Below are positions 31,784 through 34,134 of a DNA stretch of 64,000 bases, piece after piece. The translations under genes were made by a program, and so were the position numbers. The notes under the pieces are model-generated. The model saw only the letters and a list, made by a program, of their open reading frames with translations, was not told where the DNA came from and ran no database searches. Every line of letters starts with the position of its first letter. Within the stretch, counting starts at the first letter, position 1. This stretch comes from Acidobacteriota bacterium (GTDB lineage Bacteria > Acidobacteriota > Terriglobia > Acidiferrales > UBA7541), in NCBI GenBank assembly GCA_003224055.1, contig QHYE01000079.1, forward strand, positions 1-64,000, written 5' to 3'.

Positions 31784-31911
31784 TGCGGTCCTCCGGGATT
31801 AGGAGGATAACCCCGGAAAGGAGTACGAGGCAATCGCTCGTGTGTGGGCGCGGAGACAGGTTGCCACCAGGGAGGGGCGGCAAAGCCAGATCCCGCGGAG
31901 GATGGACGTGC

Positions 31912-31964
31912 CGAACAAAAAGCGAAAAATAAAACTTGACATAGCGAACAAAAAGCGAAATACT
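31912..31964 (+). promoter_or_regulatory. Promoter with twin identical 16-bp operators (LexA-like)
   Basis: The 16-mer CGAACAAAAAGCGAAA occurs twice, at 31912-31927 and 31945-31960, exactly 33 bases apart. TTGACA (31936-31941) and AATACT (31959-31964) form a promoter with a 17-base spacer. One copy lies just upstream of the -35 box and the other fills the spacer, the usual place for a repressor. The pattern GAAC-N7-GAA resembles the alphaproteobacterial LexA box (GTTC-N7-GTTC on the other strand), so SOS control is possible. The next gene encodes a radical SAM protein. Confidence 0.65.
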
Positions 31965-31986
31965 GCGGCGTGCTTCGAGGTGGGCG

Positions 31987-33324
31987 ATGTCTCCAGTTCA
32001 TTCCTCATCGACGGTGGGTATTCGTATCCATCGGCGCCGCGTATCACCAACCTCAGTAAGACTCTTTCCTGAGTGCCCAAGTGATGTAAGCCCAATGAAA
32101 GTGGTCGGCGACCTTGCCCCGGTTGCGGACCAACATGGGAGCATGGCGGATCGCATGACGACGGATTGCCCTCCAGAGTCAGAGGTCACGAGCGGAGCTC
32201 AAAGCTCCAGCCAGGACCCGGTCCGAAACGCACCCCTGGTGCCACACGAGCGCGCTCACGCGCGACTGGTGGGCATTGCCCGCCTCGCAGCATGTTCTCC
32301 GCCGGCGGAGACGCGAAGAAAATCGCCGGAGAGGCCGGAGTATTTTGTTTTGCCGGTGCGGTCGGTCCTGAACAAGTGCGATTCGAATCGCGTGCCATTC
32401 GAATGGACGATCAATCCTTACAGGGGATGCGAATTTGCGTGCAAGTACTGCTACGCGCGGTATACGCACGAATACATGGAGCTGGATGGAGGGGCGTTCG
32501 AGAAGAAGATTTACGTGAAGAAGGATGCGGCGGCGCTGCTGGCGCAGGACGTGTCGCGCAAATATTCCTATTCGTCGGAAAAATCGGATGGCGAGAGGCC
32601 GGACCATATTGCGATCGGGACGGCGACAGATCCGTACCAGCCCGCGGAACGGGAGTATGGAGTGACGCGGGCGTGCCTGGAGGAACTGGCGAAACGCGAA
32701 GGGATGAGTATTTCGATCATCACGAAGTCGAATCAGATTGTGCGAGACATTGACGTGCTGAAGAAGATTGCGGTGCGGTCGTCGCTACAAATCGATATCA
32801 CGGTGACCACACTGCGTTCGAGGCTGGCGCGATTGCTGGAGCCGCGCGCACCGCAGCCGCGCCTGCGGTTGGCGGCGGTGAAGGAGTTGCGCGAGGCGGG
32901 ATTGCAGGTGGGAGTGTCGGCTTCGCCTCTATTGCCGGGGATTACGGATGGCGAAGGGGAACTCGAAGCAGTGGCGGCCGCTGCGAAAGAAGCGGGCGCG
33001 CAGTGGTTTTTCTCGGGAGTGCTGTTTCTGATGCCGTCTTCGGCGAAGCAGTTCTTGCCGTTTGTGCGGGAGAAGTTTCCGCGGCTGGCGAGGCAGTACG
33101 AGCAGTGGTACTCGAAAAACGGCTACGCGCCGGAAGACTACCGGCGCAAGGCTTCCGAGCGCGTGGGGCGGATACGCCGGAGGTATGGCTTTGAGTCGCG
33201 ACCGCGGGTCCCGGTCAATCAGAAACTTTCGTGTTCGCAGATGGCGTTGAGCTGGGATGCGGCGGCGGCGCCGCCATCCGGAGCGCCCACGATGGCCGGG
33301 CTGCGCTCGTGCGCGACAGGATAA
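31987..33324 (+). CDS. Radical SAM protein, PA0069/Rv2578c-like family
   Basis: A 445-residue radical SAM enzyme. The iron-sulfur motif is CEFACKYCYAR, within EWTINPYRGCEFACKYC, followed by HEYMELDGG and IAIGTATDPYQPAEREYG, which mark the SplB-like PA0069/Rv2578c family. The first about 105 residues (Ser/Arg-rich) do not match the usual N-terminus. The start at 31987 is chosen because GAGG stands six bases before it and the likely transcript starts near 31971; 32095 and 32143 remain possible. The C-terminal part includes RRKASERVGRIRRRYGF. The family is related to spore photoproduct lyase but its substrate is unknown. Control by twin operators suggests induction by a signal such as DNA damage, which is inference. 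Confidence 0.85.
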   Translation: MSPVHSSSTVGIRIHRRRVSPTSVRLFPECPSDVSPMKVVGDLAPVADQHGSMADRMTTDCPPESEVTSGAQSSSQDPVRNAPLVPHERAHARLVGIARLAACSPPAETRRKSPERPEYFVLPVRSVLNKCDSNRVPFEWTINPYRGCEFACKYCYARYTHEYMELDGGAFEKKIYVKKDAAALLAQDVSRKYSYSSEKSDGERPDHIAIGTATDPYQPAEREYGVTRACLEELAKREGMSISIITKSNQIVRDIDVLKKIAVRSSLQIDITVTTLRSRLARLLEPRAPQPRLRLAAVKELREAGLQVGVSASPLLPGITDGEGELEAVAAAAKEAGAQWFFSGVLFLMPSSAKQFLPFVREKFPRLARQYEQWYSKNGYAPEDYRRKASERVGRIRRRYGFESRPRVPVNQKLSCSQMALSWDAAAAPPSGAPTMAGLRSCATG

Positions 33325-33405: not shown

Positions 33406-34044
33406 CTAGGGAACGATGATACGGGATTCTTCGCGCTTGAGATCGGGAGCGACGGGGAATTGGCCGCGGAGGAATTCGATGAAGCGGCGCGAACGCGGGC
33501 GGCCGTTGGTGCGCAACAATCCCATGCGGTAGAGAAAAACGAGCAGATAGAAAATGTCCGAATCTTTGAAGTTCGCCGACGCGGCGCGCTCGGCCTGCTG
33601 TTTTTTGATTTCATTGAGAAGGGCAATCAGAGCAGCGTAGAGTTCGCGCGGGAGCGGAGCGACCGGTGGTTTTTCATAAATGATGCCGGAGCTGAGCGTC
33701 TTGTAAGTTTCGGCGAGAGCCTGGATGGCCGTGAGTACATCGGTATCCGCTGCGGCGGGCTGGACGGAGCAGAATTTGGCGATGGAGAAAGCCATGGCGG
33801 TCATCAACTGCTGATGCGTGTAGACGATGTCCTGCGGAATCTTCTCGTCCAACAATGGAGTGTCCGCAGGAATCTGGCGCCGGTGCTCGTTTTCGTAGCG
33901 ATGGGCGGCGATCAGATAAGGGCAGTCCGACGGGCAATCGATAGTGACTTCGCGCTCGGTGCCGCAGCAGACCGCGCAGATTTTTTCGCCTTTTGCGGTA
34001 CAAAATCGCGCGGCTTTGCGTTTTTCACAGATCGGACAAGACAC
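33406..34044 (-). CDS. Cys-rich zinc-ribbon-like protein
   Basis: About 212 residues. The N-terminus has nine cysteines in the first 41 residues (CPIC, C15, C23, CC at 26-27, C37, C41), starting VSCPICEKRKAARFC and ending DCPSDCPYL, consistent with two bound zinc ions. The rest is helical (HQQLMTAMAFSIAKFC, LYAALIALLNEIKKQQAER, FYLLVFLYRMGLLRTNGRPR) with no known catalytic motif. The GTG at 34044 follows AGGAGA at the right distance and opens directly on the first Cys pair; the ATG at 34104 is rejected. It may be a nucleic-acid- or protein-binding factor. It is followed in the same direction by no obvious partner. Confidence 0.75.
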   Translation of the reverse strand: MSCPICEKRKAARFCTAKGEKICAVCCGTEREVTIDCPSDCPYLIAAHRYENEHRRQIPADTPLLDEKIPQDIVYTHQQLMTAMAFSIAKFCSVQPAAADTDVLTAIQALAETYKTLSSGIIYEKPPVAPLPRELYAALIALLNEIKKQQAERAASANFKDSDIFYLLVFLYRMGLLRTNGRPRSRRFIEFLRGQFPVAPDLKREESRIIVP

Positions 34045-34134
34045 TGAATCTCCTATGGTTCCATGCGGTCGTTCAGCAGAATACGCCGCGACAGCGAAAA
34101 TCACAAAAATGCCTACAACCGGGAAGGGGAGTCG

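Follow-up and report, generated by a model that had tools for sequence, protein, structure and literature searches.

The window, that is, the whole 64,000-nt stretch of DNA that was analysed, carries a gene for a radical-SAM protein whose upstream region contains a -35 element, a -10 element, a Shine-Dalgarno-like sequence and two exact plus-strand copies of the 16-mer CGAACAAAAAGCGAAA, which are the only two in the window (Table 1). A previous reading of this locus, made from the sequence only, had described identical 16-bp repeats 33 bases apart that flank TTGACA and fill the 17-base spacer before AATACT, and the exact coordinates confirmed this layout. The two copies are separated by 33 nt from start to start, corresponding to about three helical turns; copy 1 ends 8 bases upstream of the -35 element, and copy 2 takes up the -35/-10 spacer and runs two bases into the -10 element. 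When the window was scanned at up to 3 mismatches, 1.17 matches to the 16-mer were expected by chance and only the 2 exact copies were obtained. The next downstream ORF taken as a gene (33406-34104) is located on the strand opposite to the radical-SAM gene, which therefore appears to be a single-gene transcription unit.

Table 1. Features of the radical-SAM gene and its promoter region, in window coordinates.
Feature	Position	Strand	Basis and remarks
Operator 1 (predicted LexA/SOS), upstream of -35	31910..31927	-	Reads TTTCGCTTTTTGTTCGGC; 16-mer part 31912-31927
-35 element TTGACA	31936..31941	+	Sequence; TTGAC beside box 2 in nearly all two-box relatives
Operator 2 (predicted LexA/SOS), in -35/-10 spacer	31943..31960	-	Reads TTTCGCTTTTTGTTCGCT; 16-mer part 31945-31960
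-10 element AATACT, 17-base spacer	31959..31964	+	Sequence; AAATACT kept in most two-box relatives
Shine-Dalgarno-like GAGGTGGG	31977..31984	+	Sequence; GAGGTGGG/GAGGCGGG kept in most two-box relatives
Radical SAM protein, 445 aa, ATG 31987	31987..33324	+	CX3CX2C at C148/C152/C155; predicted SOS effector

The repeats had also been likened to a GAAC-N7-GAAC SOS box. The SOS-box part of this comparison stood, but the literal GAAC-N7-GAAC form was dropped after the real sites were aligned, the second half here being GAAA. Read on the minus strand, the motif is best described as TTCGC-N6-TTCGC, a direct repeat with a period of 11 and flexible outer bases, and its consensus is NTTCGCY-TTTT-NTTCGCC, in which a T-rich linker lies between the TTCGC half-sites. 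Position frequencies from 106 boxes placed TTCGC at positions 2-6 and 13-17, where the most conserved bases of the box are found, and a G before TTC occurred at position 1 in 5/106 boxes and at position 12 in 47/106.

The window belongs to a draft genome of 4.53 Mb in 136 contigs (96% complete), and genome-wide counts were obtained from it by pattern searches with mismatch limits, in which the rank of a site by mismatches does not equal its occupancy. Besides the promoter pair, one further exact copy of the 16-mer was found in the whole 4.53-Mb genome, at C48:62185-62200. The first genome search, using the 16-mer with up to 3 mismatches, gave 68 matches versus 88 for the reversed control, and thus no signal over noise. 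With the refined 18-mer NTTCGCYTTTTNTTCGCC at up to 1 mismatch, 10 genome sites were found versus 0 for the reversed pattern, which indicates that the motif is not spread randomly through the genome, although this count is partly circular because the refined pattern was written after those sites had been seen. For this reason, the independent support comes from what was counted in other genomes and at the promoters of orthologues. In 20 genomes of the same class, the refined motif summed to 102 sites versus 9 for the control, whereas most genomes of other classes in the phylum sample had 0-2 sites, similar to the control. Therefore, the refined motif seems to be mainly a feature of the class Terriglobia.

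The 10 refined sites precede lexA, recA (two boxes), a Ypol-dnaE2 operon, the radical-SAM gene (two boxes), and genes for a DinB_2-family protein, a DEAD/HRQ1-like helicase, RecQ and DnaB. The sequence-only reading had named lexA, recA and imuB/dnaE2-type genes as the places where further copies would be most telling, and the motif was indeed found at all of these. The lexA promoter of this genome reads TTGAC-GTTCGCTTTCTTTTCGCC-TAAAGT; the encoded LexA has HTH and Peptidase_S24 domains and is the one Peptidase_S24 match in the genome. The copy at C48:62185-62200 is embedded in TTGAC-TTTCGCTTTTTGTTCGCC-TATAGT, upstream of a gene for a Y-family polymerase (IMS domains), which is followed by one for a DnaE2-like alpha subunit.

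The other boxes are located as follows. The site at C29:70228-70245 (L048) was the sole mismatch-free match to the stricter consensus GTTCGCCTTTTGTTCGCC; it lies in the context TTGACA-[box]-TAGTAT and precedes the gene for a DinB_2-superfamily (metal-hydrolase-like) protein, which is a strong candidate SOS gene. At C111:37988-38016 (L056/L068), three TTCGC-like half-sites in an 11-bp register are positioned just before the gene for the DnaB replicative helicase. The boxes at C11:19986-20003 (L051) and C110:19656-19673 (L067) precede the genes for a DEAD helicase with an HRQ1-like winged helix and for RecQ, respectively, both of which are possible further SOS genes.

Conservation was then assessed at 80 named loci that encode a relative of the radical-SAM protein, 77 of which had enough upstream DNA; among named organisms, those closest by this protein are 'Acidobacteria bacterium isolate gp2' and Candidatus Acidiferrum MAGs. 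Using the refined motif, a box was found upstream of 77/77 orthologues and always in one orientation, which bore out the idea that the repeat recurs in the promoters of acidobacterial orthologues. The stricter motif, at up to 3 mismatches, was present in 74/77 of these promoters versus 0/80 gene-internal control stretches. Two boxes were carried by 29/77 promoters (the gp2/Acidiferrum group), with a spacing of 29-33 nt and box 2 between TTGAC and the -10 element, and one box by the other 48/77, mostly from more distant Terriglobia. In most of the more distant single-box promoters, and in the Terriglobales radical-SAM genes, the box immediately follows the -10 element instead of occupying the spacer. 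In the two-box relatives the copies diverge from each other and the half-sites are kept in both, and because the flanks vary freely, it is the operator rather than the promoter sequence that is conserved. Radical-SAM orthologues were found in 54/61 genomes of the family; the gene is not an obligatory regulon member, since the same-genus genomes G005 and G018 had no match. A MAG labelled Betaproteobacteria (L086, CAJCHZ010000004.1) also has the gene, 75% identical and with a double SOS box; this MAG is probably mislabelled acidobacterial DNA.

The same box was traced at the other genes across relatives. Among lexA genes whose products belong to the (S)xATVHKH recognition-helix class, 25/26 promoters had the box, which fills the TTGAC/TATACT spacer, and one lexA of this class (L203) had no box upstream. 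For the YPATVQDH LexA paralogues of other Terriglobia families (L189, L192, L206 and L207), a box was found upstream in 0/4. A box was located upstream of recA in 28/28 genomes and of the Ypol-dnaE2 operon in 9/9 cases with enough upstream DNA, and 18/20 of the canonical DinB paralogues among those listed had no box within 3 mismatches. In all recA boxes (28/28; L210-L237), the first half-site is TTTGC, not TTCGC, probably because this half-site doubles as the -35 element in TTTGCT-N17-TAtnnT, and recA may be more weakly repressed owing to the TTTGC half-site. Both the placement and the strand of the box vary between genes: it occupies the spacer in lexA and Ypol, covers the -35 element in recA, and follows the -10 element in the Terriglobales radical-SAM genes mentioned above.

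When lexA, recA and a translesion operon share a box that overlaps the core promoter, this is a hallmark of the SOS response (PMC8565304, PMC3323433). Such a box is shared here by lexA, recA and the translesion-polymerase operon, so a LexA operator is the best-supported reading, and the two repeats are very probably the LexA operators (SOS boxes) of Terriglobia-class acidobacteria, predicted to repress a radical-SAM gene that would be damage-inducible. Non-LexA damage regulators exist in other bacteria, DdrO and PafBC being such regulators, and the repeats might instead be operators of another damage- or stress-responsive repressor that has the same targets. We consider this improbable, given that the box is found on the lexA promoter itself in 25/26 cases, tracks one LexA HTH class and is absent from the YPATVQDH paralogues, that no Peptidase_S24 protein other than LexA was found in the genome, and that lexA, recA and dinB-dnaE2 constitute the classical LexA core.

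Less probable still is the view that the boxes act as a structural element of the DNA or of the promoter, such as an A-tract UP element or a curvature signal, and not a repressor site: the boxes are A-rich, adjoin the -35 element and lie about three helical turns apart, as such an element might, but their most conserved bases are the TTCGC half-sites, at 1.3-2.0 bits per position, their promoter position and strand differ between genes, and just 10 copies exist in 4.5 Mb. Hardly any weight attaches either to a functionless chance occurrence or a recent local duplication of 16 bp. That both copies are identical in the window would suit a duplication, yet the two copies in relatives differ and nevertheless keep their half-sites, and at least one box is present in 77/77 promoters; a chance or duplication origin was therefore rejected on the conservation across orthologue promoters.

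For the repeats as LexA operators, we infer binding by LexA, repression and induction by damage along the following lines. In the undamaged cell, LexA bound to the spacer (operator 2) and upstream of the -35 element (operator 1) would block RNA polymerase, and with the operators about three helical turns apart, two LexA dimers could line up on one helical face and repress more tightly. Once DNA is damaged, LexA would cleave itself under the stimulus of the RecA filament; this would free the radical-SAM gene to be co-expressed with lexA, recA and the operon for the Y-family polymerase and DnaE2. The radical-SAM gene is accordingly best described as a conserved and predicted part of the acidobacterial DNA-damage response.

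The radical-SAM product had been called PA0069-like in the sequence-only reading. Its relatedness to that family held, but membership did not: the protein scored 227 bits against the PA0069 family (NF033668, NCBIfam), below the curated cut-off of 360, and 237 bits against the Rv2578c family (NF038135, NCBIfam), below the curated cut-off of 430, and it therefore represents a branch of its own, though a related one. The protein was also modelled with AlphaFold2 (mean pLDDT 67.9, with a good core and the first ~110 residues disordered), and the model gave spore photoproduct lyase as its best fold match (Geobacillus SPL, PDB 4FHC/4FHG; Z 15.0, 254 aligned, rmsd 3.7, 10% identity), which is a tie with lipoyl synthase at Z 14.4, the SPL lead being under 1. 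The product is thus predicted to have a fold compatible with spore photoproduct lyase, but since lipoyl synthase falls within 1 Z unit of SPL, its function does not follow from the fold match alone. A sequence search of solved structures returned no relative of the protein. Across 32 homologues, no cysteine besides C148/C152/C155 was invariant and no counterpart of SPL C140/C141 was evident by conservation, which argues against SPL chemistry with a donor cysteine. As for the activity of the enzyme, we infer that its substrate is probably damaged nucleic acid. In mycobacteria, Rv2578c may be inducible by damage; a literature search on Rv2578c and PA0069 with DNA damage gave nothing useful.

SOS control of SplB-like genes as such is already known. 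SOS-controlled splB (COG1533) has been described in alpha- and beta-Proteobacteria (PMC3323433) and SOS-controlled SplB-like (COG1533) genes in Bacteroidetes (PMC8565304), and some SOS-linked operons contain SplB-like radical SAM genes (PMC3765255). The gene in the window resembles the SOS-regulated splB of Proteobacteria and Bacteroidetes in being an SplB-like radical-SAM gene under LexA control, here predicted, but it differs from them in phylum and operator and in a protein that lies outside PA0069/Rv2578c and is without an SPL-type invariant extra cysteine. What is new here is thus another phylum for an SOS-linked SplB-like gene and a new operator variant; a non-exhaustive full-text search of the literature found no description of an acidobacterial LexA box. 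For the class Terriglobia (Acidobacteriota), a group very abundant in soil, these data propose a LexA box and a core SOS regulon in terms concrete enough to be tested. Through its predicted regulation, an SplB-like radical-SAM enzyme that is uncharacterised is linked to DNA damage, which hints at the type of substrate for biochemists.

Compared with known LexA systems, the Terriglobia box combines features of two operator types. The alphaproteobacterial LexA operator is a GTTC-N7-GTTC direct repeat (PMC3323433, PMC8565304, PMC9578287), and the Terriglobia box is likewise a direct repeat with a period of 11, includes a perfect GTTC-N7-GTTC instance at C29:70228 (GTTCGCCTTTTGTTCGCC), and lies, as in Alphaproteobacteria, on lexA, recA and splB-like genes. 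The Methylobacterium lexA promoter carries a GAAC-N7-GAAC-N7-GAAC array, and the C111 DnaB gene here has overlapping triple half-sites too. Unlike the alphaproteobacterial box, the core here is TTCGC-N6-TTCGC with a T-tract between the half-sites, few sites retain the first G, and whereas the Methylobacterium LexA helix is SKSGIHRLI, that of the LexA here is SLATVHKHI and not alphaproteobacterial. The half-site letters GTTCG/CGAAC are similar to those of the Firmicutes/Actinobacteria CGAAC-N4-GTTCG palindrome, but the repeat is inverted there and direct here. The LexA here shares 41.8% identity with the Cytobacillus LexA (SSSTVHGHL helix) versus 34.1% with the alphaproteobacterial one found. 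The direct repeat, the SLATVHKHI helix and these identities together make the layout Alphaproteobacteria-like and the helix and half-site letters Firmicutes-like. A tentative proposal, to which we give somewhat less than even credence, is that the acidobacterial LexA independently evolved a direct-repeat operator, with a Firmicutes-like TVHxH helix and head-to-tail TTCG half-sites, and that its regulon has as a near-constant member a radical-SAM enzyme which lacks the SPL cysteine and would repair or process a DNA lesion of a kind not yet described. The Terriglobia box, set beside the direct repeats of Alphaproteobacteria and the palindromes of Firmicutes and Actinobacteria, is a case for asking how LexA dimers came to read direct, not inverted, repeats.
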